Assembly (NCBI GenBank): GCA_921293015.1
Contig: OV121091.1
Location: forward strand, 40,408,839-40,472,838
Length of the DNA stretch: 64,000 nt
Source of the DNA: Phorcus lineatus
Taxonomy: Eukaryota > Mollusca > Gastropoda > Trochida > Trochidae
Reading direction: 5' to 3'
Positions 3,001-34,143 of this stretch are shown piece after piece; the first letter of the stretch is position 1, and each line of letters begins with the position of its first letter. The notes below the pieces were generated by a model, which had not been told where the DNA came from, searched no databases, and saw only the letters and a program-made list of their open reading frames with translations. The position numbers and the translations under genes were made by a program.

Positions 3001-3086
3001 AAACTTTGCATAAGACAATAAACTCGAAGATATCCTGAAACAATGTAGTTTATTTAAAGTACAAGTGTGTTTGAGTGCTAGGAAAT
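1..3086. other. AT-rich intergenic DNA, no supported gene
   Basis: Both strands hold only short open frames (78 codons or fewer) with no recognisable domain and no exon-like run flanked by good splice sites. No tRNA boxes, long inverted repeats or tandem arrays were seen. I see nothing here I can name. Confidence 0.5.
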
Positions 3087-6388: not shown

Positions 6389-7330
6389 TAATGTGTGATT
6401 ATTGCAAAGAAGTTGATAATGTGAAAAAACCATGCTACTTATGAATTCGTCATGATTTACTTTTTTGTTTGTACTGTTACTGCGCATCTTTTAAAACAAG
6501 TTTCAACTCTCTAAGTAAATTTTGAAAAAATAGCCCATGTTAATTTTGTTCAAAAAGATTTTTCACATTTTTTATCCTTTATTGTGAACGAATATTATTG
6601 TTCGCGAGCAATGTTTTGACAGTTTCATCAAGTCCATATACTGTTCTTACCTCCCTGAAAAATTGGTGCAATTGTGAGTCTAACTTTTTGAATTATCTCC
6701 CTTTGAATATGCTTACATGAGCAAAGTTGCCCGACTTTGAAGGGTTGCCGAACTATAAATATTTGACTTTCATCAAAATCTGAATCACCCTGAAATTCCC
6801 AATGTCTCAGGTACATTCTTGGAGATTTTCGGCTCTTAGACGCAAGTACCTTCAGAGGTGATACATTTCAAAGATGCATGGGGTCCGGAAATTTCAAAAA
6901 GTCAAAAAAAGCAATATGGCGGCGAAAGTATTCATGCTACGAATTTGCCATTATTTACTTTTTTGCTTGAAATGTTATTGCGCATCGTTTAAAAAAGGTT
7001 TCAAATCTCTAAGTACGTTTTGAAAAAAATTCCAATGTTAATTTTGAAAAGTTTGAGTGGTACTGAGCCTTTAATGGAATGTCCGAATTGGCTGAAAAGT
7101 TTCATGTCGCGAGGTCTTGGTAAGGGCTATAAGATTGTAAAGTTTGGTTGTAATTGAGTCGCTAGTTTTGGCTGAATTTTGTACACAAGAATCGTGGAAT
7201 TTATGCTTTTTATGAAATTGTCATGATTTACTATTTTGTTTGATAATATTACTACGCATCTGTAACAAGTTTCAAGTCTGCAAATGCATTTTGAAAAAAA
7301 TAGCCCATGTTTTGTTCAAAGTGAAATTGC
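6389..7330 (+). repeat. Dispersed repeat family R6, copy 1
   Basis: From about 6389 to 7190 this sequence is nearly identical to 33300-34110. The same 62-codon frame is readable on the minus strand of both copies, which only reflects the DNA identity. Inside, a degenerate unit recurs at about 6443, 6930 and 7208: a motif like GAATTCGTCATGATTTACTT, then TGCGCATC and a TTTGAAAAAA stretch. So the family has an internally repetitive structure. Copy 1 continues into a third unit where copy 2 ends in an AAT tract. The class is unknown; I see no reverse transcriptase or transposase. Confidence 0.7.
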
Positions 7331-10448: not shown

Positions 10449-12450
10449 AGCTATGTACTTTCCAAATATTTTTAGATTGGGTATGATTGTTCCAATCTAC
10501 AAGGGAAAAGGCCCAAAATACGACCCAAAAAACTATAGAGGTATCACTCTCACATCCTGTTTAGGAAAACTTTTTGAAAAAATTTTACTCTCGCGATTAG
10601 AAAGTTATATCAATACTATTAACCCAAATTTTCCAGACCCACTACAATTTGGATTTAGAAAGGAACATGGTGCAGTTATGTCAGCGTTTATGCTTAATGA
10701 TTGCATAACACACTATGTCGAGCGTGGATCACAAGTTTTTACAGCTTTTCTAGATAATGAGAAAGCCTTCGATCGCATTTGGCAGGATGGTTTATTCTTA
10801 AAACTTCATGATCTAGGCATAACAGGTAAAATGTGGGATCTACTATATCACAGTTACACGTGCAGCTCCTCTTTTGTCATGTATGATGGAAATAGTTCAG
10901 ATAAATTTGAAGTAAAACAAGGGGTAGGACAGGGTAGAGTCCTGTCTTCTTGGTTCTTCCTTGTTTTCATAAATGATTTAATAACTGAATTAAGAGCATG
11001 TGACAATGGTATATGTGTATATGGTATAAATGTACCATCAGTTTTGCTGGCAGATGATACAACACTATTAAGTACCACCCCATCTGGGCTTCAAAATTCC
11101 CTCAATATTGTTTCGCAATATGCCTCTCGATGGCGCCTAACATACAATGCATCTAAAAGCACTGTCATAGCTTTTCGGAAAGGGAAACAATCCAGTCTTG
11201 AACCTTTATTTTCATTTTGTAATACCCTCATAACTGTAAGACCATCAGTAAAATACGGAGGCATCCTTCTCTCATCAGATCTCTCTTGTAAAGACAGAAT
11301 CTTGACTAGTTGTCAAAAGGCAAGACAAACTATAAATTCCCTACGTTCACTGGGTCTTAACAATACTGGCCTACATCCAATTACGTGTGTAAATATATGG
11401 AAGAGAATGGTTTTACCTACAAGCTTTTATGGTTGTGAACTTTTATCCACACTACATGGTAAAGACATCCATATTGTGGAAAATACTCAACGATATTTTG
11501 CCTGTTGTGTACAAGGTTTTAACAGACGTATGTCAACAGATTCTGTTTGTGCTAACCTTGGTCTATGGACAATGGTCGGATATATTGACAAGTGTAGATT
11601 ATTATTCCTTGGAAGACTATGTAATAATTGCTGTAATTCATCAACGAAAACTTTGTTTTGTGCATTTCTATCACTCAATATTCATGTATGTACTAACTCC
11701 CGCAGTATTAGCAACACTCTGTTATGTACAGCACAAAAGTATGATCTTCTCAAATATGTTGAACATTATGTACAAACTGGTATTTTCCCCCTTAAAACAG
11801 TGTGGCGGAAAATAGTTTTTAAGTCTATCTTCTCTTTTGAAGAAACCCAATGGAAACTGAAACTCTCCATAAGAGAAGATATGTCAAGATATGCTATGAT
11901 ACACCAAAACCTCAATATGCATAGACTCTATACTCTTATAGATCTATTCCCAGATTACAAAGCCCATATACAACTAATTGTACAAACTGGTTCTAAGGCA
12001 AAATTTTCAAACGAATGTACACTTTGCAATAAACACTGCTATGACCATGATGCACACGTCATCCTACATTGTGAATCTTTGATGTGCCAGAGAAATAACT
12101 TTTATTTAAAACTACTTGACATACTTGATGTAGATGCCTATGTGAATATTGAATTGCTGGATGATGACGATGTCTTGGCACTATTTTGTGGTGCACCCCT
12201 TGACATTAATGGACTTACAAATGAAGATAGACAAACCGTAATACTTGAATTTTCACACTTTATTTATGATATAAGAATATCTCTGAGTAAATACTTCTAA
12301 ACAATGCTCCTGTAAATATTGCAATGTGCACCGTTATGGTTTGAATTTCTTGTAAATATTCCTTATGTACATATTTGATTGATATTGTTTTTGCCTAGTA
12401 ATCTTCAAACGCCATTGGAGGAAATAAAGACATTCATTCATTCATTCATT
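10449..12450 (+). mobile_element. 5'-truncated non-LTR retrotransposon (LINE)
   Basis: The 5' junction falls inside the segmental duplication and starts directly at the beginning of the reverse-transcriptase domain, so the upstream endonuclease part is absent: a typical truncated reverse-transcription product. After the stop codon comes a 3' UTR of about 130 bp and a (CATT)n tail at 12431-12450, the kind of microsatellite tail seen in CR1/L2/Jockey-type elements rather than poly(A). No target-site duplication is visible; comparison with the empty copy A suggests a target deletion of about 21 bp instead. Clade placement is inference. Confidence 0.85.
10453..12300 (+). CDS. LINE reverse transcriptase, 5'-truncated ORF2
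   Basis: The open frame of 615 codons encodes an RNA-directed DNA polymerase of the non-LTR type. It opens at the usual start of the domain (IVPIYKGKGPK, NYRGITL, residues about 12-32). Motif A is AFLDNEKAFD with Asp101, GVGQGRVLSS lies near residue 158, and the catalytic box is LADD at residues 199-202, with Leu in place of the common Tyr/Phe. After the thumb and connection region there is a Cys/His cluster (CTLCNKHC, then HVILHC) from Cys522, similar to the C-terminal zinc-binding segments of LINE ORF2 proteins. The AP-endonuclease domain that should precede the polymerase is missing. The ATG is probably fortuitous, because the true protein began further upstream. The absence of internal stops argues for a fairly recent insertion; the copy should be non-autonomous. 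Confidence 0.85.
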   Translation: MYFPNIFRLGMIVPIYKGKGPKYDPKNYRGITLTSCLGKLFEKILLSRLESYINTINPNFPDPLQFGFRKEHGAVMSAFMLNDCITHYVERGSQVFTAFLDNEKAFDRIWQDGLFLKLHDLGITGKMWDLLYHSYTCSSSFVMYDGNSSDKFEVKQGVGQGRVLSSWFFLVFINDLITELRACDNGICVYGINVPSVLLADDTTLLSTTPSGLQNSLNIVSQYASRWRLTYNASKSTVIAFRKGKQSSLEPLFSFCNTLITVRPSVKYGGILLSSDLSCKDRILTSCQKARQTINSLRSLGLNNTGLHPITCVNIWKRMVLPTSFYGCELLSTLHGKDIHIVENTQRYFACCVQGFNRRMSTDSVCANLGLWTMVGYIDKCRLLFLGRLCNNCCNSSTKTLFCAFLSLNIHVCTNSRSISNTLLCTAQKYDLLKYVEHYVQTGIFPLKTVWRKIVFKSIFSFEETQWKLKLSIREDMSRYAMIHQNLNMHRLYTLIDLFPDYKAHIQLIVQTGSKAKFSNECTLCNKHCYDHDAHVILHCESLMCQRNNFYLKLLDILDVDAYVNIELLDDDDVLALFCGAPLDINGLTNEDRQTVILEFSHFIYDIRISLSKYF

Positions 12451-14364: not shown

Positions 14365-14646
14365 TACGAGGGTAAGTCAAGCTAAGCTCTTATAGTTTGT
14401 AAATTAGGAAGTACATGGTTAAGTCCGAATTTCATGTAAATGGATCATGAAATAAATTGAAATGATGCTAAAAGAATCTTTGTAAAGTAGGACTGAAGAG
14501 TTAAATGTGACAAAACAGTGATTAGGTTTGATAATTAATGGATTTTGAAATTGGCTCAGGAAATTGCATGGTTTAACTACAATCGAGATTCTTTAATTTT
14601 CAAAGTATTGACAGTTGAACTTTAAAAAGTTTGACTTACCCTCGTA
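14365..14646. mobile_element. Short TA-flanked MITE (mariner-like ends)
   Basis: Perfect 14-bp terminal inverted repeats, CGAGGGTAAGTCAA at 14367 and TTGACTTACCCTCG ending at 14644, are bounded by TA dinucleotides at 14365-14366 and 14645-14646. A TA target duplication with CGAGGG ends fits Tc1/mariner-type non-autonomous elements. The 282-bp interior has no coding capacity. It lies just downstream of the Helitron coding frame. Confidence 0.75.
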
Positions 14647-14700
14647 TTATCTCCTTAACATACGACCTAAAACATATGTATGAAGTAAAGTAAAAGGGGA

Positions 14701-14767
14701 CCACCCACTCTATGAAAGTTCCCCTGCACACCTTGAACAATAAGGTGTGCAAATGATCAGTGGGTGG
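14701..14767. repeat. Nested hairpins downstream of the Helitron ORF
   Basis: An inner palindrome has 9-bp arms (GCACACCTT 14726-14734, AAGGTGTGC 14742-14750) and a 7-base loop. It is enclosed by an outer 9-bp pair (CCACCCACT 14701-14709, AGTGGGTGG 14759-14767). It lies 61 bp beyond the stop codon of the replicase. Helitrons carry a hairpin near the 3' terminus, so this may be the element's termination structure. The exact end, expected as CTRR or a Helentron-type terminus, could not be fixed. Confidence 0.5.
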
Positions 14768-14827
14768 ATATTCCACCTCAGGATTTCTGACATTTGTGTG
14801 TCTTGTTGAGACACATTTATGATGTTT

Positions 14828-17800
14828 TTAGAAAAAGATTTCAAGTGCATCATGAAAACTGAAATACGTTGGCAAAACCTCAACCGATGCCTGGCCAATA
14901 CCTCTCACATACACATGATCAGGCAAAGTACCTGCTTCTGTGGTGGCACATCTTGCAATTTGTGTGAAATTGTGCGATTCCATTAACCTTTGGATGGAGG
15001 AACTTTTGAGGGCATTTTCATTAAAATCTCCCATAATGATTGCCTTGTCACTGTATTCACCAATTTCATCAAGTAAAGCTTTTAGCTGGTTCTTGAAAAG
15101 GGTCAGTTTGTATGTTTGTGGTCTGTACACAACAGTAACAGTTGTTGTATGTTCTGGGATGAAAAGTGTCAAGTATTCAAGGTTTGTACAATGAACATGT
15201 GGAAACTCACAATATTTTTTGCAGAAAACTCCTACACCACCATGGGACTGACTTTTGAGATTTGCAAACACGGCTCTTGATTCATCATATGACTGTGATC
15301 TTTGTTTGTGCGTGAACATGAATCCATCAAGAACTGGATGTTGAACATCTGAGAGCCAAGTTTCTGTGAGAAATATGAAGTCTGCAGAATGAAAGCGTTT
15401 ATCACGTCTCAAATTGTCAATGTGGCAAGGCAAACCCTCAACATTTTGAAGTACAAGGTGACACATGTGGTCACGGGTTTCATTTGGAGCTGGCAGACAA
15501 TACTGAGGCATGTTTGATATGGCTTCTGACACATCACTGCTACAAAAAATTGCTTTTGGGTCAAAGTCTTTGAGAATGAGTCCCTGTAACGATGTTACAC
15601 GAGAAAGCGCAACATATGCTTGTCCTGGAGCAAATATGTTCTTCAGAGAAACAACTGCTTGCTTTACTGTCAAGCCTTGCACTTTGTGAATGGTACAGGC
15701 CCATGCCAATTTTAATGGAAATTGACGCTTCATTTTCTTTGAATATGCATTCTTTTCATCATGACGACAAATGGGAGTGCTGTTTAATGGAATGCCTGCA
15801 GGAAGTCTCTTTCCTCTGCGCAGTCTTTTACCAACTTCATTGTTATCAAAGACAACATACACAACAGTAGCTTTTCCTTGTTCAGTTGCAATGTGCGAAA
15901 CTTTGCCAAAAGCGCCATTCACTAAGCCGTCAGAAGTGTCAATATTCTGTGTAAGGAGGACTCGAGCATCAATTCCGATATTTTGAGATGAAGATGAAAT
16001 CCTTTCAAACTCTCCAGTTCTCAGATTCTTTCCAAATTCCTCTATGTCAATTTGAAAAATGTCAGTGCACATTTTCTGAAGCATATCTTGATTATACTTG
16101 TCAACTTCATCATTTTTTGACAATATGTGTAGACAATTAGGGGTTTCTCCTGTCACGCGACTGGCAAGTAAATCAAGATCATCAGTTGCAATACTGATTT
16201 CATCATCATCTCTGTTCACCTTTGGTGTTTTCCTGAGTCTGTTTAGCAAAGCTGCAAATTCTGAGTCTCTTTGTCTCATTATTTCTGTCAATTCTACCAC
16301 AGAGAAACAGTCATTCCACAGATCATATCCGAGAACTGGCTTGTACAGTGGTGTGCCCTTTACTGGTGGCAGCTGATAAAAATCTCCAACAGCAAGAATA
16401 GAGACATTGCCAAAAGGGAAATCCTTCTGTTTGATTTGTTTCAATCTTCCATGGACATACGACATCAACTTCTGGTGGACCATTGAAATCTCATCAATGA
16501 TAAGAATCTGAACCCCTCCACATTTCGATCGCAGTGTATTCAAAGTATCTTCACACAGATATTGATATTGATTTGGAACTGCAATACCAATAGACAATCC
16601 TGAATGAATAGTGGAACCTTTGATGTTGAATGCAGCATTTGCAGTGGGTGCCATCAACAGAACTGATGTGTCGTCAGGGCGATCCAAAATTGGAGCAAGT
16701 AAACGTGTAGCTTCATAGTAAATAGCTTTCACCAAATGGGATTTTCCAGTGCCTGCTCCACCAGTCAAGAATACATGAAAAGGTTCAGGATCTTTGCCAT
16801 TTCGCTTGTCAAGACACCATTGTCTAAGACTGTAGAATACCTCTTTCTGTTTTTCGTTCAAGGATTTCAAGATTGCTTGTGCTTCTTCCTTGGAAACATT
16901 TGTTTGAAGTGCTTCTGCTCGTGAAACACGTTCTTCGTGAGGAAGCAAATCTGGTATGTTCTGGTCATCATCTGTTTCATTCAAATCAAAAGGTTGATCA
17001 TTACTTCTGAGCTCTTGACATTCAAGTCTATCAACCTCAGCTTGTGGACATATCTGTGACCAGGCATCTTCAAGATTACCAGAAGTTTCAAGCATGTCCT
17101 GTGCAAGTTGCATGTCTGAAGCATTCATGTCAAATACCTGTCTGTTTCTTTCTACAATTGACGTGATAGATTCTAAATTGCCTGAAGCTGTTGCAATTGC
17201 TCCATTATTGTAGAAATGTTCATACGTATGAAACTGTTGTGGTAACAGTTCAGTATCACTTCTGTGGGGAAGAAACAATTCAAGACTTGTTTGAAAGTAC
17301 TTTTCTGGATCTTTTTCCTTTGAAAATCTGGCATATCTGACAACTGCTGGATCAGTGTTTGTTCTTTTCTTGACATGCCCAAGATTGTTCTGTAAGGCAA
17401 TGACAGGTGTGCGTCGATTTTCATCAGCCACATTGGAGACTTCAGATTTTGAGAGGAATCTGTACTCAGATACAAATGTGGCTTGGCACATGTCATGAAA
17501 CTCAGGTGTGTCAGGTCTGGCTCTGTATTTGTCAACAGTACTGGGTAACCATATGTCATCTTGATCTATTTCTCCTTTGGCTAACTTTGCTCTCAGTTGT
17601 TTGAGAGGCATACTCATTCTGATTCGATTGACAGTTGGGATGAATTCAACCTTTCTTGAACAACCTTTGAGATCAAGTGTGCATACTCGGAAAATTGCCT
17701 CTTGTGCACTCACTTCACGACTGTTCAAGTACTTTGTGCCAATCTTTCTCATTGCATTTTTGGCATCTACATTTCCTTCTTTCCTCACTTCATTCTGTGC

Positions 17801-20800
17801 CCGCTCAAGTAGCAAACCCATTTCTTTTTCAGCTTTTGATATATATGACACAATGTAAACAACGCATGAGTATGCATCAACTACAAATTGAATGTCCATG
17901 TTTGCACCCCAACAGCGCAAGAGATCAGGATTGTACTGATTTACCCACACATCTGATGAGTTTCTCTTAAGGACAACACTGGTCTTTTTTGAAAGAGTTT
18001 TTGATGCATTTTCGTAGATCTCTTGGGAAATACCAACGTGTCTGAACACCTCTTCAACGGTATGAAAACTGAGATTTTCATTCTGCAAGGCTTGCCATAT
18101 TTTGCCAAGGATTTCTCTAGCTTGATCCTTAGTCATGATTTGACTATTTTTGTCAATTGCCTCTTGTAATTTCTCATCAAAAACTCTGCGTTCATCTTCA
18201 GTCATTGTGTCATAGTCAGCAACTGGAACTTCAACAGTCTTAGTTTCTGAACGACAAACAAAGGTTTTCTGAGAAGGAGGACGTGGGAAATTGAAACGAC
18301 ATTCCTTTCCATTCTTTTTGCAAGTTTTTGAATGTCTCTTACTGTGTCTCTGTACATTGGTAACAATCTCGTGCAATTCAGAGTCATCATCCTGGTTAGG
18401 CAAGTCACAGGAAACATAGTTGTTAACAAAGTCAACTACTTCATCATCAGTGTTTTCATCTATCTTTGGAGCATTATCAACCCAAAACAAGCAATGAACA
18501 TGCGGTGAACCACGCTGTTGGAATTCAACTCGGAAGAAATAGTCCTTGATTTGGCCAATAGGTTGTGCAGGAGACATGATAACTTCTCTCAAAAATGAGT
18601 GAAACCTTTGATCAAACATCCTAGCAGTTGTGACAGGATTCTTTCTCAAAATTGCACATTTTTCATTCCAATCGAGTTCATCTGCCTTACGTGGATCTCC
18701 ATCTTCCCTTAAAATGCTCTCAATTATTTCAGGCCATCTCGTTTCAGCAGATGAGAAGGAGCAAAACCATGTTGGGATGCCAAGCTGGCGAATCATGGCA
18801 AAGAGATCTTTTTGTGCAGCTGCCCAGTAAGGGGGAGTTCCTCGTATCGGCGTCAAGAATTTGTATCCTTCATCACTTTTCAGGAGATTTTGCAATGACT
18901 CATTATCACTCAGTGTGTCAGCATTAATTTGTGGTCTACAGCAATCACCTGCGCCTTTGCGTAGAGCAATAGATGCTTTTGAGATCACCTGCTCAAGTTC
19001 AGATCTGTACTGAGCATGGAAAATGTAGGGAATGCTCTGTGCACATCTTGTATCAGCATTCATTAGTCTACAGTGCAGGTAACGAGACAGAGTCAGTTTC
19101 TCCTCACGGTTGTCATGATAGATTGGACTACCTTTTGGGAATAGACATGGAAAGGCTTTGGCTTCATCATCATTGTCTTGAAGCATTCGAGTTGGAGTAT
19201 TTCCTTCAGCTGGTGCTATACTCGTTATTTGATCAAAATGTTGATCAAGTATTTCCTGACCAATGTCAATGGGTTGTAAGCATGTATCTAACAGCATACC
19301 ATGATTGTCAGATTCTTCACGAGTCAAATCAACATTTTCAGCATTTTCATCAGCAACGTCCATTTCACATTGGTCATCACTTTCATGAACGGTTTCTTCT
19401 TCATCAATTGTTGGAAGTGGATTATTCCAATTTTCATTCAAATTGACATCTCTGTAGTATCTGTTGTTAGCATGGAGATAGTTAAGGGCTTTAAAGACCT
19501 TGGTTTTGTTCACATATTGGTTCTTGTAATGTCCTTTGTAAGTCAGTTTCCTTTTAAGTTTCACCTGAACAAGCTGATCTTCTGAGTCAGTTCTCGGTAA
19601 TGCATTCACTGTTTGGACAATGTTTGATGGAACACTGACAACAGGCCCATGTACTGAGTTTTGTGCACCCTTTGGAAGAGGAACGAGTTTCATAAATGGA
19701 ATGTGCAATGATACCAGATGTTCCTCAAGTTCATTCAGAGTTTCAAGTTCTGGAGGAATTGGTTGTAACTGAAGATTGTTTACAACTGCTTCACCTGGCA
19801 TTTTTCCTCGTGAGACTTTTTGATGGCATGAGTGGCAAATCCACAGTTTTGATGATGATTCATTTGATAGGGTACAAGTTTCCTGACAATCTTCAGAACA
19901 CGTATGCAAATATGTTTCAGTGATGCACTTGTCAGCAACTAATGAAGCCTGCTCACTTTTAGCCATATAGTAATCTTTCTTACACTGAATCACCTGTTTA
20001 CGAAACAGTTTTCTTTGGCAAACAGCACAGACATAGTCAGGACCTTCTTTTACCGTTAATCTGAATGCTTCAGTAACATGTTGAATACTTTGTTGTTGCC
20101 TTTTCTTCGAAAGTCTTTTGTTTTTAACTGAGGCCTTAAACTTTACTCTTAGTTCAGGATTGGTAGCATACTTGTCAATACCAGTAGATTTCACAGCTTC
20201 TCGATGCTCAGCATTTGTAGCATATTTGTCAATACTGGCAGATTTTACAGCTTCACGGTGCTCTGCATTTGTTGCATATTTGTCAATGCTGGCCGATTTT
20301 ACAGCGTTACGGTGCTCCGCATTTGTTGCATATTTGTCAATGCTGGCAGATTTTACAGTGTCACGGTGTTCTGCATTTGTTGCATATTTGTCAATGCTGG
20401 CAGATTTTACAGCGTCACAGTGCTCTGCATTTCTTGCATATTTGTCAATGCTGGCAGATTTTACAGTGTCACGGTGCTGTGCATTTGTTGCATATTTGTT
20501 AATGCTGGCAGATTTTACAGCGTCACGGTGCTCTGCATTTGTTGCATATTTGTCAATGCTGGCAGATTTTACAGTGTCACGGTGCTCTGCATTTGTTGCA
20601 TATTTGTCTATGCTGGCAGATTTTACAGCGTCACGGTGCTGTGCATTCTTTGCATATTTGTCCATGCTGGCAGATTTTAAAGCCTCTCTGTGACAAATGT
20701 CCATTGCATATTTCAGTTTGCTTCCTGCTTTCTTACGCTTTCTATATTCAGCATCTTCATGATATCTGTTCATTTTTGTTACAGATGGTCTTTCTTCATG

Positions 20801-22387
20801 TTCTACAGTGTCAGAGAAAGTTTTCTCAGCTCTGCACATCCTCAAAGAAGTTTTTCTTTGCTTTTGCCTTTTTTCATATGACAGTTTTTGTTTGCGTTTT
20901 CTATCAACAGCTTTCGTCGGTATTGTATCAAGCTCTTGTTCTAGTGAATCTGTGCATGAGTCAGTATTCTCACTGGTCAATTCATTCGGCATCACAAATC
21001 TTTCATGTGAAGGAATGGTTGTAACAGTGACTGGAGTAACTTCAAACTGAGAGTCTACATGTGAATTCATGGACTGGGCTAGACGCATACAGTGACCATG
21101 TACCTGTTCCAAAGTGTTGTAATGTGCTATAATACATGTACCATTGACTGAGAGTTCACCAGCTTGATTTCGCGAATGTGAATCAAACACATGAAATGTG
21201 TCATTACTGGAAAGAATTGCAAATGTGGATTCACAAAATGTAACAAATGCATAATTGTGAGTCTGAAAAGATTTCCGGATGGCAAGTTGTAAGGACATGC
21301 TTGCATTGGTATCACTTTCATTTTCAGTGCTCAAGAGGCCAAAAAGAGTAGGACTTAACCTCAAATGAAATATGTTTCCATTGATCTCAACATTTTCTGG
21401 TAGCTCTTCAACATTCAAGTATGCATTGTTGATTGAAGCAAACTGCTGCAAAGATGAGTACAATTCGTTTCCATGAAACATGATTGAATTCAAGTCAATT
21501 GTCGACCAGTTAGTTACATTTGTCACTTTTGAATGCACCATTGATGCCAAACTCATAGTCACACACTGTCGGCCTGCATTTTGACCAAACACGGCATTTC
21601 CTTGGTGGAAAGAGGCATGTGTGACAGGGAAATTAGAATTGGTTGTAGTCATACATTCAGTAAGAGATCTAGAAGTACATGGTTGAGATTGGTCTTTCAT
21701 AACTGTATACAATTGCTGCAAAGGATTACTTTGTTGAGGTGTTAATTCAAATTCCATTGTGTTAGACAATACAGTTTCAGTGTTCCAATTATCATCACCC
21801 ATAATTGTTTGCACTTGTTGCCTACTATCAATTTGGTCAAGACTGTTTTTAAATTGAATGAGGTCAGCCCTCTCTGTTTCAGATGTGCATTCAAACTGTT
21901 TGCCATTCAAGGATTGAAAGTGGTTGCCAATCAAGGATTCAAACTGGTTGCCAATCAAGGGTTCAAACTGGTTGCCAATCACGGATTCAATTTGGGTGTC
22001 AGAATTGTGTTCTTTGCTCATGTCATTTAAGGGCAACCTGCGAGCAATAACAGGTTGTCCGGGATCTTTGCTCATGTCATTTGAAGACAACCTGCGAGCA
22101 ATAACAGGCTGTCCCGAATCTTTGCTCATGTCATTTGAGGACAACCTGCGAGCAATAACAGGCTGTCCCGAATCTTTGCTCATGTCATTTGAGGACAACC
22201 TGCGAGCAATAACAGGCTGTCCCGGATCTTTGCTCGTATCATTTGAGGACAACCTGCGAGCAATAACAGGCTGTCCCGAGTTCAAGCTGCTGTTTTTAAC
22301 GAGGACAGCTTCCTCTGTTGAAGTCTTCTTATGGGCTGCCCCCTTCCGCCAGTTCTTCTTTTTCGCCATCTGGAAACAATTTGACAT
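14828..22387 (-). CDS. Helitron replicase: protease-like, HUH Rep, PIF1-like helicase, endonuclease
   Basis: A 2519-codon frame. In order: five 18-residue N-terminal repeats (about 38-125); a cysteine-protease-like domain with GRQC at Cys275 and FDSHS with Asp402/His404, in the style of the OTU/C76-like domains found in Helitrons; about ten 18-residue basic repeats (DKYATNAEHRDAVKSAS, about 565-745); a Cys-rich segment (CAVC, CHSC) followed by a DUF6570-like region (about 780-920); the Rep domain with HUH (His1296, His1298, in QQRGSPHVHCLFW) and candidate tyrosines in VVYIVSYISK near 1510; an SF1B PIF1-like helicase with Walker A GGAGTGKS (Lys1882), IIDEISM, GDFYQLPPV and YVALSRV; and a C-terminal EEP endonuclease from about 2310 (QNVEGL, TETWL, GDFNEN, FSFHD). 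It should cut and unwind DNA for rolling-circle transposition. Start: the first ATG is used here; Met7 (MAKKKNWRKG) is an equally good start. Domain names are from motif recognition, not a profile search. Confidence 0.9.
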   Translation of the reverse strand: MSNCFQMAKKKNWRKGAAHKKTSTEEAVLVKNSSLNSGQPVIARRLSSNDTSKDPGQPVIARRLSSNDMSKDSGQPVIARRLSSNDMSKDSGQPVIARRLSSNDMSKDPGQPVIARRLPLNDMSKEHNSDTQIESVIGNQFEPLIGNQFESLIGNHFQSLNGKQFECTSETERADLIQFKNSLDQIDSRQQVQTIMGDDNWNTETVLSNTMEFELTPQQSNPLQQLYTVMKDQSQPCTSRSLTECMTTTNSNFPVTHASFHQGNAVFGQNAGRQCVTMSLASMVHSKVTNVTNWSTIDLNSIMFHGNELYSSLQQFASINNAYLNVEELPENVEINGNIFHLRLSPTLFGLLSTENESDTNASMSLQLAIRKSFQTHNYAFVTFCESTFAILSSNDTFHVFDSHSRNQAGELSVNGTCIIAHYNTLEQVHGHCMRLAQSMNSHVDSQFEVTPVTVTTIPSHERFVMPNELTSENTDSCTDSLEQELDTIPTKAVDRKRKQKLSYEKRQKQRKTSLRMCRAEKTFSDTVEHEERPSVTKMNRYHEDAEYRKRKKAGSKLKYAMDICHREALKSASMDKYAKNAQHRDAVKSASIDKYATNAEHRDTVKSASIDKYATNAEHRDAVKSASINKYATNAQHRDTVKSASIDKYARNAEHCDAVKSASIDKYATNAEHRDTVKSASIDKYATNAEHRNAVKSASIDKYATNAEHREAVKSASIDKYATNAEHREAVKSTGIDKYATNPELRVKFKASVKNKRLSKKRQQQSIQHVTEAFRLTVKEGPDYVCAVCQRKLFRKQVIQCKKDYYMAKSEQASLVADKCITETYLHTCSEDCQETCTLSNESSSKLWICHSCHQKVSRGKMPGEAVVNNLQLQPIPPELETLNELEEHLVSLHIPFMKLVPLPKGAQNSVHGPVVSVPSNIVQTVNALPRTDSEDQLVQVKLKRKLTYKGHYKNQYVNKTKVFKALNYLHANNRYYRDVNLNENWNNPLPTIDEEETVHESDDQCEMDVADENAENVDLTREESDNHGMLLDTCLQPIDIGQEILDQHFDQITSIAPAEGNTPTRMLQDNDDEAKAFPCLFPKGSPIYHDNREEKLTLSRYLHCRLMNADTRCAQSIPYIFHAQYRSELEQVISKASIALRKGAGDCCRPQINADTLSDNESLQNLLKSDEGYKFLTPIRGTPPYWAAAQKDLFAMIRQLGIPTWFCSFSSAETRWPEIIESILREDGDPRKADELDWNEKCAILRKNPVTTARMFDQRFHSFLREVIMSPAQPIGQIKDYFFRVEFQQRGSPHVHCLFWVDNAPKIDENTDDEVVDFVNNYVSCDLPNQDDDSELHEIVTNVQRHSKRHSKTCKKNGKECRFNFPRPPSQKTFVCRSETKTVEVPVADYDTMTEDERRVFDEKLQEAIDKNSQIMTKDQAREILGKIWQALQNENLSFHTVEEVFRHVGISQEIYENASKTLSKKTSVVLKRNSSDVWVNQYNPDLLRCWGANMDIQFVVDAYSCVVYIVSYISKAEKEMGLLLERAQNEVRKEGNVDAKNAMRKIGTKYLNSREVSAQEAIFRVCTLDLKGCSRKVEFIPTVNRIRMSMPLKQLRAKLAKGEIDQDDIWLPSTVDKYRARPDTPEFHDMCQATFVSEYRFLSKSEVSNVADENRRTPVIALQNNLGHVKKRTNTDPAVVRYARFSKEKDPEKYFQTSLELFLPHRSDTELLPQQFHTYEHFYNNGAIATASGNLESITSIVERNRQVFDMNASDMQLAQDMLETSGNLEDAWSQICPQAEVDRLECQELRSNDQPFDLNETDDDQNIPDLLPHEERVSRAEALQTNVSKEEAQAILKSLNEKQKEVFYSLRQWCLDKRNGKDPEPFHVFLTGGAGTGKSHLVKAIYYEATRLLAPILDRPDDTSVLLMAPTANAAFNIKGSTIHSGLSIGIAVPNQYQYLCEDTLNTLRSKCGGVQILIIDEISMVHQKLMSYVHGRLKQIKQKDFPFGNVSILAVGDFYQLPPVKGTPLYKPVLGYDLWNDCFSVVELTEIMRQRDSEFAALLNRLRKTPKVNRDDDEISIATDDLDLLASRVTGETPNCLHILSKNDEVDKYNQDMLQKMCTDIFQIDIEEFGKNLRTGEFERISSSSQNIGIDARVLLTQNIDTSDGLVNGAFGKVSHIATEQGKATVVYVVFDNNEVGKRLRRGKRLPAGIPLNSTPICRHDEKNAYSKKMKRQFPLKLAWACTIHKVQGLTVKQAVVSLKNIFAPGQAYVALSRVTSLQGLILKDFDPKAIFCSSDVSEAISNMPQYCLPAPNETRDHMCHLVLQNVEGLPCHIDNLRRDKRFHSADFIFLTETWLSDVQHPVLDGFMFTHKQRSQSYDESRAVFANLKSQSHGGVGVFCKKYCEFPHVHCTNLEYLTLFIPEHTTTVTVVYRPQTYKLTLFKNQLKALLDEIGEYSDKAIIMGDFNENALKSSSIQRLMESHNFTQIARCATTEAGTLPDHVYVRGIGQASVEVLPTYFSFHDALEIFF
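20150..20690 (-). repeat. 54-bp coding minisatellite in the Helitron replicase
   Basis: About ten units of 54 bp encode the 18-residue repeat DKYATNAEHR-D/E-A/T-VKSAS-I. Central units differ by only a few bases. The outermost (NPELRVKF at the C-terminal side, DICHREAL at the N-terminal side) are diverged. All units keep frame. The encoded segment is charged and probably helical. Because the unit is a multiple of three, the complementary strand also stays open here for up to 191 codons, which I treat as a shadow. Confidence 0.9.
22000..22290 (-). repeat. Second 54-bp coding minisatellite (N-terminal repeats)
   Basis: Five in-frame copies encode GQPVIARRLSSNDMSKD plus one residue, an 18-residue period. 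The units are almost identical at DNA level, so the expansion is recent. Immediately after come shorter related units around IGNQFE (residues about 136-165, roughly 8-9 residues each). The sequence differs from the internal KSAS repeats although the period is the same. Confidence 0.88.
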
Positions 22388-22400
22388 GATTATCAGTTAA

Positions 22401-25400
22401 CTCCTAAAAGAAGTTAAGCTGAAACTTTTAGCAAGAGGTTAGTAACTCATTTGAGGAATAAAATTGTGTAATGAGGGATAAGTTGGACTCTTTAAACTTA
22501 TGTTGAACTGAAATTGTAAAAATTGAAGGAATATGACTAATGGCCCCTTAGCACTGGCAGTACCAACTTGTGACCTCATGCTATTCTGCACTGTAATCTG
22601 TAACTTTGTTGAGAACTTATTATGTGAATTCATTTTAAGAAATAAAAAAGGCATGTACGTAATAAAGGCTTAATAAACATTACGAGCATTTGGTGGGGTG
22701 TTTTTTTTGTTGATCTATTTAGGTTGTTGTTTGGGTGTATATGAATCCGCCATTTTAGCTGATAATAATAAGACATGCATTGAAATTAATACACTACCAA
22801 AGCAAGGATTGGGAAAGGCAGGGGCCCTGGGCTATTTTGCACATTGAATGAAAAAATGGCTCATTCAAATTAAGAATTTTATCATTGTTCCAATTGTTGG
22901 CAGATTAAAAATTCTGAGAATTGACTCAAAGCCCTGAAAATGGCCCATTGTCAAAGGTGTCTTACCCAATCCCTGCAAAAGTAATCAAAGTAGCAATCAT
23001 TACTAGAATAATTGTGCATATCACTCGTGTTGAAAAGAATATCTGTTAACATATGAAGAATTTTCTAATTCTTTATGAAGACTAACTTTTGGACTTAATT
23101 TATCAATTGACAAAAAGAGCCATACGGACATATGCCAGCTCATTGAACACAACACAGTTTTAGAAAACAGCTACTGAATCCTATATTTATTTACAATGTA
23201 TACCATTCTTGGAAGTTAGAATTAATATGCCTCTCTTCTGAACTGGAAATCTGTTCGGCTGAGGAGTTTTACAAAATGGGGAAAGGTTTTACACTAAGGT
23301 ATTTTTATAAAACACTTTGGACAGATTATATCCTTTTTTGCTAATAAATGTTCGAACATTATGGACTTAAAATGGTTACAGTATAGAATTATTTAATTAT
23401 CATATCAGCTCCCAACAAGACAATTATTTCCTTCTTGTATGTGATGAATATCAACACCTCTTGGTTCATTTTGCATAAATGAATTAGAAACATTAAACCA
23501 TATACTTTTGGAATGTGAACCTATCTACAAATTATGGAAATAAATTGTTTATTCTTAAATTAGAAATTACCAGTCAAATTGTCATATTTGGAATGAACGG
23601 AACAAACAATAATGCTGCAAATGTAATCCTCTTTTTGTCAAAAGTAAATTTACAAATTGATGATTGTTTGTTTATAAACATCAATTATTTCAATGATCGA
23701 CACTTCTGCAATAAGAAAATATTATAGATATTTTTAATTTAAAAAATGAACCACTACTAAAAACAGAGCAAATAAAAGTAGTTTTACTCATTATTAGTAA
23801 AGACATTGTCACAATATGTGCAATCTTGTTAAAACTAGGTGTTATTTAATACGTACCGAAGTGTGTTATTACATCTATAGAATAATAAGCTATTCCGTGT
23901 CACGCAGGTGCGAACATCAGCTAATCAAAAGAGAGCTGGCCAAGCTCTCCAAATCGCGGGTCAATTTGATTGTTTCACCATTCTAGAGCACCTCGATTAC
24001 AAAATTCTTATGTTACTGATGTATTTGGAGTAAATTGTGTTGAAACATTTGATGACAGCTTTCAGTTTTGTGCATATATTGCTGACAGAATATTTGTGTG
24101 GTGTTTGTGTTCATTAGTGCAATGGTTTTTCAACAAATTAGGTCAAATAATCACAAAAGTAGTTTTCTAGGATAAATATAGACGGAAGTAGAGTCACTAT
24201 TTGACATTAACCAAGATGCAGAAGAAACTCCTGCTTGATTGGTTGAAAGCCAACTTCCTGTCCTTGTTTTATTGGTGGGTTTCAAAGTTCATAAAAGGTC
24301 AGCTGAACATGACTTCAATCAGTTATTCTTTAGATGTATTGATGGATCATTAAATCTAGTTTTATGAAATTAATTATTTTCATATTTAATTAATTGATAA
24401 TAATTGATATTAATATATTTCATATACTTAACATATTTTTCAAATCAACCTTTGTGTGATCTTCTGTGAGGAATTTTACCTTGAATGAGCTAGAAAAGAG
24501 CCAGCAAGTATCAAACTTTTTTCTAAAATACTTACAGCTTAAATATAAAAAAATATAATTCCAAATTTGTTAATGATGATACATATTCATGTTGTATATC
24601 ACTGCCAAATTGAATTTTAAATATATGATTAGTTGTGTGCAGTTTTCTAACAGTGCCTTATTTTTTTAAAAAAAAACACAAAGTTTCTTTTGAAAAATTC
24701 ACAATTGTCTATCATTTGACAAAACTTCATGTAATGATGTATAACTACCAAATTTGATCAAAATTAGATGAATAGTTAGCAAGTTAACAGCAAGCCTACA
24801 TTTGAACAAATTTTTCAGCAGAAACCCATTTGGTCAAAAGATTTGAAAGAGTTTTTCACAGAAACCTTATTTGTTGTTAAAAGACACTATATTTTCAAAA
24901 ATTGTAATCATAACAAGCAAGCATGTTTATACATTTTTAAAAAATCAGATGGCTAGTTTAGAAGTTATGAGGTGTACATTTGATTAAACAGTTTTTCCCC
25001 ATTTTTGTCAAAAAAACTCAACATTTTTCCAATCGTTTCAAAATTGTCAATCATGACACACCTTCATATAATTACATATGGTCATCTGATGAAATTTGGA
25101 TGTTAGGTTAAAAGTTATGCTGCACATGACTTTTAACAGTTTTGGTTTTCTCTGAAATATCACCAAAAAATTTGAAGATATTTAGACAAGTTAACAATGA
25201 CACAACATGACACATCATTACATATATCTGAATGTCAATGACAAATTTGAAGTAATTACGGATTAGCTATAAAAGTTATGAGCGCGACACAATGTGTAAC
25301 ATACGACAGATCCAAATATAATAGCGATGCCTGAACCATCATGAGTTTTGAAATAAAGTACTGTTTTGCCCTGATTGATTATTGTGAAAGCACCAGGCCG

Positions 25401-27611
25401 TATATTTTAAACATATCATTTTAAGAATATACATGTCAAATTTCAGAAAAATACAATTAAAGAAATGATGATCTTAATGAAAGCTGTAAAGAAAGTGTAA
25501 ATACCTGAGAGTGATCTTATGATTCTCTTAACACAGTTCAATCCAAATAAAGGAGATATTTCTATTGAAAATAAAATTTGACATTCAACGTAAAAGCTTG
25601 GACACTATGTTAGAAAATAGGTATTTCCTTTTACAAAACAGGTTTGTTTAAAGTTTTTGTTCTGTTCTATTGGTTGTAAATCATGTGCACAATGGTTTTA
25701 ACAATGTTCTATCAACAACTTTCAATTTATTTTATTTTATCCTTTCAAATTATTTTGATAAGTTTATTTTTCAGGTTTTGTTACCTATTTTTTTAAAAAC
25801 TGGAGGTTACATTCAATGCATGTGAAGCTATTAACCTGTTTACATGTACACTAACCAGTTTAATTATTTTTCATGTATTCACCAAAAAGAAATAACACTG
25901 AACAGAGAATATGTTATGAAGACATAGATGCATGTAAAAAATGCACAAATTGCTCCTAATTCCATATGACAATATATTTGCTGCGGCGTATTGAAATATG
26001 TATGGAAATATATTAGTATTTCATATTAACCGGTAAATTTGTTCATGCTCACTTGACTGAGTAACAGTGATCAAAGCCAAACTGGCTTTTGCAAAGAGAT
26101 AATGCAGTGACTAGTTTTTCAACTTTTAACTTTGCAAATTCATATTTAAACTTTCAGTAAAATCACGTCGTTAGGTTATTTTACAAAGCATAAACTGAAA
26201 TTGTGTATTTCATATCATCCAAGAAATAAGATATTTTCAGAAGACTTTACTGGTAGTTATTGTGTTGTTGCTGTATTGCAATATACTGATACACCGATAA
26301 TTCTGCGCACCCTTAATTGTAACTTCAAAGATGCTACTTCTTTTTCTATCTTATGCCTTTGGCAGTGTTTTGTTATATGAATAATCTTAGTCAACAGTCA
26401 TAAATCAAATAAAAAATGCCACAATTGGCTTTCATGAAGATTTTGCTTTTGTAAAATCTATATGAAGAAAGTTAGAAACTCACTAAAGAGTCAATATATG
26501 TTTTTAAAAACTTTCAAATAAAGCCTTATGCTTAGCCAAACACCACCATAATGCATGAGGTTGAACTCAAAAGACGTGTCTTTTTGATAGATTTGCCTTA
26601 CTATTTTCCATGTACATTTGCATAAAGGCTAGAAAAATGTCAACACTTTTAAGTCCATAATACAATGCACAAGTATATATGTTTACAAAACATAAACCCT
26701 TATCTGTGGCAATTATTCTTTTGGGAATAAGGAAAACAAAGTGTTTGTGCAGGATATTTAAATCTTTAAAAAAAAAGTATCACTATTTTAATTTAATTGA
26801 TAAATAAATCTCTATGTATAAGATCACCAATGGAACTCAGAGTAAATTCAATTCAGTTTTACATAAAAAGCCTCAATATAAAATTTGCTAAAGTTGTAAT
26901 CTGATATGAATGATTCACTTTCCGGCCATTGATAATAGGTAGGCTTCGACGCCCTGTCAACATGTGTTTTTTTCACAATAAAGGTTTTCATTAAGAAATG
27001 TTATTTTTGACGCGTCTGAATATTGTTCCAAACAAGTTCTATCGACATATGAAAAGATACTTTAACAATGTATCTTAAAAGGGAGCATTTTTATGAAATT
27101 TTGTAAAAGGTGAGGGCAATCTAAAAAAATTTAAAAAGATTTCACTTTACAAAGATATAAAATTTGCATCTCATATTTCATATGACAGTTCATTTGTAGA
27201 ACAATTTCTTAACAATGACATTATTAAACATGTATCCAGTTGGGTAATTCGTGCGAGTAAGAAATGCGTGCAAGTAGGGTGCTGCGCAGTAAAAACACCC
27301 CTCAGTGGAGGGCGCACTGATTGAGATTTATGACTCTCGCTCACTGATTGAGATTTATGACTCTCGCGGGGCCTCCCTAATTAAACTCTGGAAGTTAAAA
27401 ATCAAGAGTTGCAGACCTCTTTTAAACCTTTCAATAAAGTTCTCCGATATGACATGATTTTAGAGTTTGTTTCTTATATTGTCACCTATAACTACATTAC
27501 ATTCAACATGTGTGAAACCAGTAATACATTTAAACTTATTGTATATTAGTATTGTGTTCTTTACTTTTATTTACTGACAAAAGAAGAAAGTAAAAAGTAA
27601 GTACTTCATGC
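22401..27611. other. AT-rich DNA, no supported gene
   Basis: About 5.2 kb with no convincing coding segment or RNA gene. A weak inverted pair (AAGGATTGGG near 22804 and CCCAATCCCT near 22966) could be the ends of a small MITE of about 170 bp. A 7-bp-stem hairpin, GAGAGCTGGCCAAGCTCTC, occurs near 23930. Around 24700-25250 the text repeatedly resembles GTTATGAGGTGTACAT and CAAATTTGA phrases, which hints at old degenerate repeats. I cannot support more. Confidence 0.4.
27315..27367 (+). repeat. 27-bp direct duplication
   Basis: The block beginning CACTGATTGAGATTTATGAC occurs twice back to back, at 27315 and 27342, with near-perfect identity. It is a small local duplication of no evident function. 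Confidence 0.8.
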
Positions 27612-28256
27612 TTAGGGACCGGTCATTTATTACAGGGTGGGGTGGGCCGGGGGGTTTTCACTTTGGATTGTCTATAAAAATGTGGCCCTCCCCAACTCGT
27701 CGCAATTATTTTCATGGCCCTTCTAATTTAAGCGTATTTTTTTTTCATGACCCTCCCCAAAATCATATCTACGAAAGTTCTTGAAATTGGCCTTTTGAAG
27801 ATTTATGGTCGGTTCTACATTTAATTTTTTGGGGGATATCTCCAAAAGAGAAACTTCTTTAAGTAACACTTCAAATAATGTTGAAAAAACCCAACAGATT
27901 TACCCTTCCATTGAGGGGTTTATCATGATATCTGATAATGGTCTATAGTGTTTTAAAATCAGTTTTATGAGAACTTTCTTTTTACATCAACTGTATATGA
28001 AAATAAGTTTTGAATACTATTGCTTATAATACACACATATGGTTTACATAGTGTAAATTCTATCTTTCATTTCATCTTACTTCCAACGCTCATTTTTAAT
28101 TTATTTTTAAAATTCAAATCACAATGTCTTTTTAATCTTTAAATAACAAAATAGGTTAGCACTGAGGAAGAGAAGGAATCTTTTTATGGATGATCAACTT
28201 CTTATTGAATTTACTTTCAACAGAGATAAAAAGAGCTAAGATATTGCACTAGTTAA

Positions 28257-30024
28257 AGGGGAAGGTAAAACAGGCCCGATTTACCCATGGGTAAGCAATT
28301 AAGGCTCCAAGAGCAGTGATTGGCTACTAGCAGACTGGGGGAGATCTTATCACCCAATGTGCCACGCCTTCTAACGGTCGCTGGAGTCAGGGAGGTCAAA
28401 GGTTATGGGAATTTTACTATGAGATATCTACACCACAGGCCCTCGGATCATTAAAAAAAAATAAAAAAATTCATAAATTTTTTTTTGAGAACACCCCCTG
28501 AATAAAATTGTTCCTCTGTTAATAGTATATAGAAAGGCCAGACACTCCGTTCGACCCCATCCGCTTTCTTGACCGAATGCTACAATAAATACACACGCAA
28601 TCAATATAAAAACTATGCAGACATGTTCTCAAATGATTTGCCTTTCTAATCCAACTCACTTAAACAAATATATCTTTGGGGTTATTTAATGAGGACGGCC
28701 GAAAGACGATTTCCACGCCCAACTTAATGCTGATGGGACAAATGGCGCCCGTCACCTTGACCTTACGGGGTGTGTGGCCGCAGCGACAGATCTCATTGGT
28801 TTGATGCAAAGTTAGGAACAGATAACTCTAATTCTCCGTTCTTGCAACCAGTGAGGTCTGTCGCTGCGGCCACACACCCCGTAAGGTCAAGGTGACGGGC
28901 GCCATTTGTCCCATCAGCATTAAGTTGGGCGTGGAAATCGTCTTTCGGCCGTCCTCATTAAATAACCCCAAAGATATATTTGTTTAAGTGAGTTGGATTA
29001 GAAAGGCAAATCATTTGAGAACATGTCTGCATAGTTTTTATATTGATTGCGTGTGTATTTATTGTAGCATTCGGTCAAGAAAGCGGATGGGGTCGAACGG
29101 AGTGTCCGGCCTTTCTATATACTATTAACAGAGGAACAATTTTATTCAGGGGGTGTTCTCAAAAAAAATTTTATGAATTTTTTTAATTTTTTTTTAATGA
29201 TCCGAGGGCCTGTGATCTACACATATACTACAGTAAAATGAGATTTCACAGCAAAAATCATATAAGTGAATGAATGTGCTGGTAGATGATATTTTCTTAG
29301 AATGACTTGAATGATATTGTATTTCTTTATAAAAATAATTTTTAAAAAGATTCTCCATTTTAAATATTTTGCCTTTATTAGTCCCTTGATATGTTTGGTG
29401 TTTGTTGTGGATTCTCAAGCTATGTATGCATCAGATATTTTTACACTGTTAGACCTTATGATCCTTTAATAATTGTTAGCCAATACAAAGTACATCTATG
29501 TGCCTAATGTTGTCATATCATTGGTGGCAATACAAAATTAGGTTCAGCACAATCTCTACTCTAGTGCTAAAGGCCCATTCCCACAGGCAGCAGTGGACAG
29601 GCTGGGGTCACAGCTGTCTTGGAGTGGGGAGGGGGGTTGTTTTACATGGGAAAGACAGGACTACTAGGGTGAAATTGATATCATGAATGGAAAGTTCTTA
29701 GCCACTCAGAGACTGCTGCCATGGCAACACTCACTTATCTGATCATATGACACATACAGTGGCAAATTTGAATCTTAGGTAGGTGTATTTGAATATTATT
29801 TTCAAAATTCTCTTTACAGAGTAAATGTATTTTTTCAGAAATGACAGCTTTGTGCTCTTCAAATACTGGTGTACATGGATGCAAAAAATCATTCTTAAAT
29901 TACAAGTAGTTGTTTTGATAATTGGCTAGACAAGAGTGTACCCAACTATATCTCAACTGAAAAGACACTCTTAACTGGGAAAATTGACTCCACCCATTCT
30001 GTGTATAGGGATTTACCTTCCCCT
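28257..30024. mobile_element. T2/Kolobok-like TTAA element nested in the Harbinger-like element
   Basis: Thirteen-base inverted ends, AGGGGAAGGTAAA at 28257 and TTTACCTTCCCCT ending at 30024, are flanked on both sides by TTAA (28253-28256, 30025-30028). TTAA plus AGGRR ends match the TTAAAGGRR signature of T2-MITE/Kolobok elements. No transposase frame is visible. About 780 bp of its 1768 bp are the fold-back element nested inside it. Confidence 0.7.
28434..29214. mobile_element. Fold-back element, 368-bp arms, 8-bp target duplication
   Basis: Left arm 28434-28801 and right arm 28846-29214 are nearly perfect reverse complements, separated by a 44-base spacer. The ends are CACAGGCCCTCGGATCATT and its complement. 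The flanks are ATCTACAC at 28426-28433 and again at 29215-29222, an 8-bp target duplication as made by hAT or P-type transposases. Only a few mismatches separate the arms (for example CAGACACTCC against GGAGTGTCCG), so either the insertion is young or the arms are kept alike by gene conversion. There is no coding frame. Confidence 0.9.
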
Positions 30025-31132
30025 TTAAAAATTCCATCAAAATACATATCTTGCCAACATTTTTACACTGGAAAACTTGAAACAATGATTTTATAAATTG
30101 ATAAAACCATGGACGGACCAGGATGGGATATAAGCTCTTTACATAAGATTTCTTTTAAAGAAAATGATAATATTTAAAATCTATCTACAAACACTCTCAG
30201 AGTACAGGACCCAAACAATGTAAAATGTCAAATCTTTACTTTATAGGAAATAAATTATCAAATTTCATAACATTTAAACTGTTTGTGTACGAGTTTGATT
30301 AAAACAAATTTAACCGTCTACATAAAGTTTGTAGCACAAGAAATCTATAGAATTTTGATGGTACATAACATAAGGATAATAAAGGCAAATCTAGGTTTCA
30401 CAGAAATTACTTAAGTTAAATTTGTTACATGTTACATAATATTTAAACAATAAAGTGTAAAACCCAAAAAGTATGGAAGCTTAAGTATGAATATAGCAAA
30501 TGTTCCCAATTTTTGGAATATGAACATTGGAATTTATTTTTCTAAATAATTATGCATTTAGATATTTTTCTTAAATATGGCTATATTAACAAATTTGCAC
30601 AAATCAAGCCATCTGCTAAAGTGTTAAGGTTTCATAACTTTGTATCATTGAGAACGATTAATATAATCATTCAGATATTAATAATTTGACTAGCTGTTTT
30701 AACTTTATGAGTTTATTAGTTATCAAACATGCATTTTGGTGTATAAAATAAAGCAAACACCTGTTTACTGCTTGTATAATTTCTAACAGAACTACTTTTC
30801 TACTTTTTGTTCTACAAGAATTAAGAACCTTTGAATTGAGCAGTGAATTCATGGCAATCTTTATTATAAAAGCATGTGTTTTTAAGAATATTAAAAAGTC
30901 ATGCTCATATTCTGGATTTCTTTTTCATTTGATAAGGCTTTCAGATAATGTTTCAGCCCCACTTTCAATTGCTAAAGAGGGATGGTTTTATAACTGTCTA
31001 TTTCAAAATGACCCTCCCCAATATTTCGTATTTTATTTCATGACCCTCCCCTGGTGGGTGTATATTTTATTCTGACCCTCCCCTGAAAACCCCCGGCCCA
31101 TCCCCCCCGTGTAATAAATGACCGGTCCCTTA

Positions 31133-33298: not shown

Positions 33299-34106
33299 TA
33301 ATGTGTAATTATTGCAAAGAAGTTGATAATATGAAAAAACCATGCAAATTATGAATTCGTCATGATTTACTTTTTTGTTTGTACTGTTACTGCGCATCTT
33401 TTAAAACAAGTTTCAACTCTCTAAGTAAATTTTGAAAAAATAGCCCATGTTAATTTTGTTCAAAAAGATTTTTCACATTTTTTATCCTTTATTGTGAACG
33501 AATATTATTGTTCGCGAGCAATGTTTTGACAGTTTCATCAAGTCCATATACTGTTCTTACCTCCCTGAAAAATTGGTGCAATTGTGAGTCTAACTTTTTG
33601 AATTATCTCCCTTTGAATATGCTTACATGAGCAAAGTTGCCCGACTTTGAAGGGTTGCCGAACTATAAAAATTTGACTTTCATCAAAATCTGAATCACCC
33701 TGAAATTCCCAATGTCTCAGGTACATTCTTGGAGATTTTCAGCTCTTAGACGCAAGTATCTTCAGAGGTCATACATTTCAAAGATGCATGGGGTCCGGAA
33801 ATTTCAAAAAGTCAAAAAAAGCAATATGGCGGCGAAAGTATTCATGCTACGAATTTGCCATGGTTTACTTTTTTGCTTGAAATGTTATTGCGCATCGTTT
33901 AAAAAAAGTTTCAAGTCTCTAAGTACATTTTGAAAAAAATTCCAATGTTAATTTTGAAAAGTTTGAGTGGTACTGAGCCTTTAATGGAATGTCCGAATTG
34001 GCTGAAAAGTTTCATGTCGCGAGGTCTTGGTAAGGGCTATAAGATTGTAAAGTTTGGTTGTAATTGAGTCGCTAGTTTTGGCTGAATTTTGTACACAAGA
34101 ATCGTG

Positions 34107-34143
<37 letters not shown>

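Follow-up and report, generated by a model that had tools for sequence, protein, structure and literature searches.

A probable autonomous-type Helentron of Phorcus lineatus with a herpesvirus-tegument-type protease domain in one long open frame

The stretch of Phorcus lineatus DNA analyzed here, 64 kb in length and hereafter called the window, carries on its minus strand an uninterrupted frame that very probably encodes the one large protein of a Helentron of autonomous type, a DNA transposon of the rolling-circle kind.

14828..22387, minus strand: RepHel-endonuclease ORF of the probable Helentron, ATG to stop, 2519 codons, no internal stops

The initial annotation of this DNA had pointed to a stop-free frame of more than 7.5 kb without naming its strand; the frame is borne out at 2519 aa and lies on the minus strand, the plus-strand reading of 14828-22387 being broken by many stops. 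Measured from stop to stop, the frame is 2522 aa long; when the bases of the ORF region were shuffled 200 times and all six frames read, the longest stop-to-stop stretch reached 177 aa, and chance is thereby excluded as the source of so long a frame. The assignment to Helentrons follows from five Pfam profiles, VTD, DUF6570, Helitron_like_N, PIF1 and EEP, which follow one another in this sequence within a single frame, each scoring above its curated cutoff. These profile matches also support the annotation's reading of a one-frame, Helitron-class RepHel with HUH, helicase, EEP endonuclease and N-terminal cysteine protease, and the residues it had singled out (C275, H404, H1296, H1298 and K1882) are all found at those positions. 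A search of the protein against NCBIfam profiles returned sub-cutoff matches only.

First, the central part of the protein is built as expected of a Helitron replicase.

19826..20029, minus strand: Cys-rich, zinc-finger-like region, aa 787-854, recognized by eye and without a Pfam profile match of its own
19430..19810, minus strand: DUF6570, aa 860-986 (Pfam PF20209, E 2e-20)
18488..19081, minus strand: Helitron Rep (Helitron_like_N), aa 1103-1300 (Pfam PF14214, E 4.7e-29)
17843..17857, minus strand: Rep two-tyrosine motif Y1511-IVS-Y1515, opposite YLFKY of Helraiser, with both tyrosines identical in the relative L001 described below
16259..16861, minus strand: PIF1 helicase, profile match aa 1843-2043 (Pfam PF05970, E 4.7e-22)

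The Rep domain ends in the HUH motif RGSPHVH (His1296, His1298), and its region matches Helraiser (7lcc), a bat Helitron, at E 6.1e-6; the segment that places Y1511 and Y1515 opposite the Helraiser tyrosines is weakly aligned (2.0 bits) and not significant alone. The helicase retains its Walker A motif (GGAGTGKS, Lys1882) and matches solved PIF1 with a best E of 3.6e-45, in an alignment reaching about aa 2284, and it also matches Helraiser. Sequence matches to Helraiser are limited to the homologous Rep and PIF1-type helicase, and Helraiser has Leu where the Phorcus ORF has Ser, just before PHxH. The HUH Rep with two tyrosines and the PIF1-family helicase fused downstream of it are features of Helitrons at large; the Ser between G and P of the HUH motif and a C-terminal AP/EEP endonuclease in the same ORF, here with an altered terminal motif, are those of Helentrons. 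Two sequence features have been described as Helentron-diagnostic, the Ser of RGSPHxH and an (F/Y)(w/l/y/k)R triplet just ahead of the HUH motif (PMC4067079). The Ser is present, and the triplet reads FFR, which fits the rule at its first and third positions with a middle F outside the listed letters, L001 having FYR.

We infer the biochemical activities of these domains from their families. The HUH Rep would nick the element strand through its tyrosines, as family knowledge suggests, the PIF1 helicase would then peel the nicked strand off, and the C-terminal EEP endonuclease may help to open the target site.

Second, the N-terminal protease domain belongs to the VTD family and aligns with a solved transposon deubiquitinase at its catalytic residues.

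21161..21613, minus strand: VTD (Herpes_teg_N), aa 259-409 (Pfam PF04843, E 7.5e-13, 49 bits against a cutoff of 25)

An OTU or C76 protease had been suggested for this region. The OTU option fell away, the list of 16 Pfam families with E values of up to 1 containing no OTU, and the C76 option was upheld by the Herpes_teg_N match, C76 being what we take to be the protease type of VTDs. A search for solved relatives gave six rows, with the zebrafish Helitron VTD 8ADD at the top (E 1.3e-7) and large tegument deneddylases of herpesviruses in second and third place (E 1.2e-4 and 1.1e-3); the remaining three, at E 0.096 and above, were discarded as chance. In the alignment to 8ADD, Cys275 falls on the catalytic Cys, Asp402-Ser-His404 on the Asp-x-His, and Glu327/Glu328 opposite the acidic pair Asp376/Glu377. 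A further residue of note, Gln262, stands 13 residues ahead of Cys275, as far from it as the oxyanion Gln of M48 is from its catalytic Cys. The structure prediction proposed with the initial annotation, run here on aa 250-435 as a single sequence without alignment, gave no usable model (mean pLDDT 32.5, pTM 0.26), and the VTD fold thus rests on homology. According to the published work on these domains, 8ADD is DrT1-VTD2, a deubiquitinase domain of a zebrafish Helitron in which Cys322, Asp451 and His453 are each required for ubiquitin cleavage, and in which Asp376/Glu377 matter for cleavage and are proposed to hold the ubiquitin tail; ubiquitin chains are cut by three zebrafish Helitron VTDs, all of which react with ubiquitin probes as well, and two of them react with NEDD8 in addition (PMC9741609). 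The Phorcus VTD most likely functions as a deubiquitinase/deneddylase of the herpesvirus-tegument type.

Why a transposon would encode such an enzyme admits of more than one answer, and the initial annotation had named both polyprotein processing and an action on host ubiquitin. The ubiquitin side is the better founded, because deubiquitinase activity has been demonstrated for zebrafish VTDs (PMC9741609). A protease that instead cut the polyprotein, freeing Rep/helicase and endonuclease from each other, would suit a protein made as one chain of 2519 aa whose domains are separated by repeat linkers, and such processing has been proposed for the OTU-type proteases of Helentrons (PMC4067079); we nevertheless think it unlikely, given that the protease here is of the VTD family and that the zebrafish VTDs act on ubiquitin, two of them also on NEDD8 (PMC9741609). 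On the ubiquitin reading, the VTD would remove ubiquitin or NEDD8 from the transposase or from host factors, sparing them degradation during transposition. This role, suggested for VTDs in PMC9741609, may by analogy hold in Phorcus, and we lean neither toward nor away from it.

The VTD also offers a lead on the origin of the viral enzymes. By hand count, the residues leading up to the catalytic Cys match those of tegument protein 6ppb, a gammaherpesviral one, at 11/18 positions, those of tegument protein 6w2d at 9/18 and those of 8ADD at 6/17. Such a pattern might mean that the branch of Helentrons to which the domain belongs is closer to the origin of the tegument deubiquitinase of herpesviruses than are the zebrafish elements examined to date. 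We regard this as improbable and as a lead only: over the whole domain 8ADD outscores the tegument proteins (35 bits versus 25.3 and 22.1 bits), which weakens the reading.

Third, relatives of the element were sought in contig collections. The degenerate Rep motif was found at six loci in genome_contigs; in viral_contigs, no relative was found with the full protein, the VTD alone, the C-terminal two-row alignment or the degenerate Rep motif. When the six Rep-motif loci were examined by tblastn, two (L001 and L003) proved to encode Helitron relatives and the other four had no match at 1e-3. A whole-protein search of the six source genomes of these loci gave matches in three, the third (G006) in the helicase part only. 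The closer relative, L001, has a 1533-aa open frame that covers the Phorcus protein from about aa 1029 to its end, with 47% identity over 1520 columns by tblastn and 48-49% in other alignments, and it carries the same Rep, PIF1 and EEP families. As this frame starts downstream of the VTD position, it is uninformative on VTD presence; PF04843 was found in none of the six source genomes, and as none of 14 control genomes was positive either, absence is not shown by that search. The Helitron in L003 is less closely related and is distributed across several frames. The two contigs are filed under bacteria-associated names, L001 (positions 1-4691, almost wholly Helentron frame) as an uncultured Photobacterium MAG contig and L003 as a sponge symbiont contig. 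L001 is likely host (animal) DNA contaminating a bacterial bin, and L003 is best read in the same way, as animal or other eukaryotic DNA in a bacterial bin.

Fourth, the frame contains three tandem repeat arrays, whose periods of 54, 24 and 54 nt are each divisible by three.

22011..22279, minus strand: N-terminal array of five in-frame 54-nt units (18 aa each, SGQPVIARRLSSNDMSKD type)
21889..21990, minus strand: tandem array of 24-nt units, in frame (8-aa units)
20159..20683, minus strand: larger array of ten in-frame 54-nt units, basic 18-aa repeats (KSASIDKYATNAEHRDAV type)

Across the ten 18-codon units of the larger array, the variable sites are distributed 9/4/15 over codon positions 1/2/3, and single-base codon differences, summed over unit pairs, comprise 117 silent and 84 changing ones. 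The five units of the N-terminal array have 2/2/5 variable sites at the same positions, with 12 silent and 18 changing differences summed likewise. Given these ratios (117:84 versus 12:18), a clear argument for translation comes from the larger array only, and the N-terminal array by itself is not strong support.

Fifth, the C-terminal endonuclease has kept most of the residues considered here and departs from its family at the very end.

14894..15424, minus strand: EEP/AP-type endonuclease, profile match aa 2322-2498 (Pfam PF03372, E 1.2e-6, 28.9 bits against a cutoff of 24.5)
14852..14860, minus strand: EEP terminal motif Ser2510-Phe2511-His2512, which is S-D-H in the relative L001

An EEP endonuclease with GDFN had been reported at this end of the protein; GDFN is indeed present, at 2453-2456, and the terminal motif, which in EEP enzymes is usually S-D-H, reads S-F-H. 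Kept residues are N2315 (just ahead of the profile match), E2342, D2454, N2456, D2490 and H2512. The domain aligns to L001 over its whole length, with the PF03372 match ending at profile position 205 of 225 in the Phorcus ORF versus 225 of 225 in L001, and a phmmer comparison of the domain with solved structures gave no match at E up to 1. Considering the Phe2511 in place of Asp and the profile match that stops at 205/225, the endonuclease may be impaired. With one relative (L001) covering the EEP, the S-F-H may reflect either a variant of the lineage or decay of this copy.

Sixth, the ends of the element are unequally resolved, and they bear on whether this copy could still move. The putative 3′ end lies just past the stop codon.

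14701..14815, minus strand: hairpin cluster just past the stop codon, folded with DNA parameters

The hairpins are formed by TGTGTCT/AGACACA, TGCACACCTT/AAGGTGTGCA, CCACCCACT/AGTGGGTGG and GGTGGAATATCCACC. Folded as single-stranded DNA, 14680-14830 has a z of -4.48, and none of 200 shuffles folds as well. As a control, 852 equal-length minus-strand windows were folded with RNA parameters, and 23 of them fold at least as well: 14 of them lie in two 145-bp arrays, two in the N-terminal array of the ORF, one in the palindrome at 28411-29239, one overlapping the 14701-14815 stretch and five elsewhere. The cluster is probably the 3′ terminal structure of the Helentron. Typical of Helentrons are subterminal inverted repeats at both ends, a 3′ palindrome and a TT target. 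Helentron 3′ ends have been described as having a subTIR and a stem-loop (PMC4067079), which the cluster fits without amounting to proof. The palindrome word of the 3′ end has no second copy within three mismatches in the 64-kb window, and with the 3′ words searched, no 5′ end carrying a subterminal repeat to match turned up in 22388-34000. Such resemblances to the 3′ flank as there were could be put down to chance, each being short, AT-rich or off by 3-5 mismatches.

Several other elements occupy the same surroundings. At 14365-14646, just past the probable 3′ end, a short element, presumably mariner-MITE-like, is bounded by perfect terminal inverted repeats of 16 bp (TACGAGGGTAAGTCAA), and farther downstream the 615-aa plus-strand open frame at 10453-12300, which encodes a reverse transcriptase domain (PF00078, E 7.7e-28), is probably a non-LTR retrotransposon fragment. 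Upstream of the ORF, at 22803-22976, there is a foldback element of about 170 bp with imperfect inverted ends (GGATTGGG...CCCAATCC). The palindrome counted among the control windows (28411-29239) is 829 bp long, imperfect and 93.3% identical to its own reverse complement. An 817-bp dispersed repeat pair (6384-7200 and 33294-34110) is 98.3% identical, and a 73-copy array of a 50-bp unit at 34845-38486 has a strong GC skew. An element whose core is a satellite-like tandem array of 145 bp (up to 95.7% identical) occurs twice, at 3083-4322 and 39540-40169; the layout of these copies is similar to that reported for the non-autonomous oyster Helentrons Cg_HINE (PMC7492417), and among the matches of 60 bases or more listed in a self-comparison, none joins these elements to the Helentron.

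It is possible that the Phorcus copy is a decaying one, whose frame is open through youth and in which the altered EEP motif and a possibly missing 5′ end preclude self-transposition. The S-F-H in place of S-D-H, the 5′ terminus that did not turn up and a MITE with 16-bp terminal repeats just past the putative 3′ end all point in that direction. We lean against such decay without dismissing it, since the other catalytic residues checked are kept over 7.5 kb, the larger repeat array has a third-position bias, and S-F-H may be normal in the lineage. The initial annotation had called the copy possibly active; it may still be mobile, a suggestion weakened by the altered EEP terminal motif and the 5′ end not found, and decay would be compatible with its identity as a Helentron.

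A host gene domesticated from a Helentron could likewise present a long intact frame, and domesticated VTD genes are known (PMC9741609). For the Phorcus ORF we consider this highly improbable: Rep, helicase and endonuclease are retained in their usual order, a Helentron-like hairpin cluster follows the stop codon, and the insect VTD genes reported in PMC9741609 stand outside any recognisable transposon context, a contrast qualified by the cnidarian VTD genes of the same paper, which are partly fused to transposon domains.

Finally, the element has to be set against known systems, the nearest of which removes the claim to novelty made for it at the outset. The initial annotation had considered the full domain combination notable; the combination with VTD, Rep, helicase and endonuclease is not new, since Erven et al. 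(2022; PMC9741609) describe VTD-bearing Helitrons with an AP-type endonuclease in vertebrates, insects, cnidarians and molluscs, and nothing nearer than this paper was found among the literature matches listed. As presented there, zebrafish DrT1 and DrT2 resemble the Phorcus ORF in having a VTD with Asp-x-His in a Helitron frame with a C-terminal AP-type endonuclease; DrT1 differs in its two VTDs versus one in Phorcus, and DrT2 in its OTU, which the Phorcus ORF lacks (PMC9741609). Features that may be peculiar to the Phorcus copy are the sequence itself, the repeat arrays, including the long ones of 18-aa units, and the S-F-H ending. The Helentrons of mite, Culex and Drosophila (2014; PMC4067079) share with Phorcus the Ser in RGSPHxH, the PIF1 helicase, the C-terminal AP endonuclease and the 3′ stem-loop, and differ, in the account given there, in carrying OTU proteases rather than a VTD; they differ also with respect to RPA and the 5′ subTIR, the latter not found in Phorcus. 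No RPA ORF was present among the four short flank ORFs scanned, of 26 listed, which gave one sub-cutoff match to another family. The herpesvirus large tegument proteins have an N-terminal deneddylase homologous to the Phorcus VTD; they are attached to the capsid and are not known to contain Rep, helicase or endonuclease.

The Phorcus ORF adds one more case, well preserved and in a single frame, of a virus-type deubiquitinase carried by a transposon, and is in most respects an ordinary find. It has been proposed that herpesviruses acquired their VTD domain from a Helitron (PMC9741609), and the Phorcus element alone leaves that picture unchanged. Such elements nonetheless bear on the question of why mobile DNA and herpesviruses both seem to gain from cutting ubiquitin.
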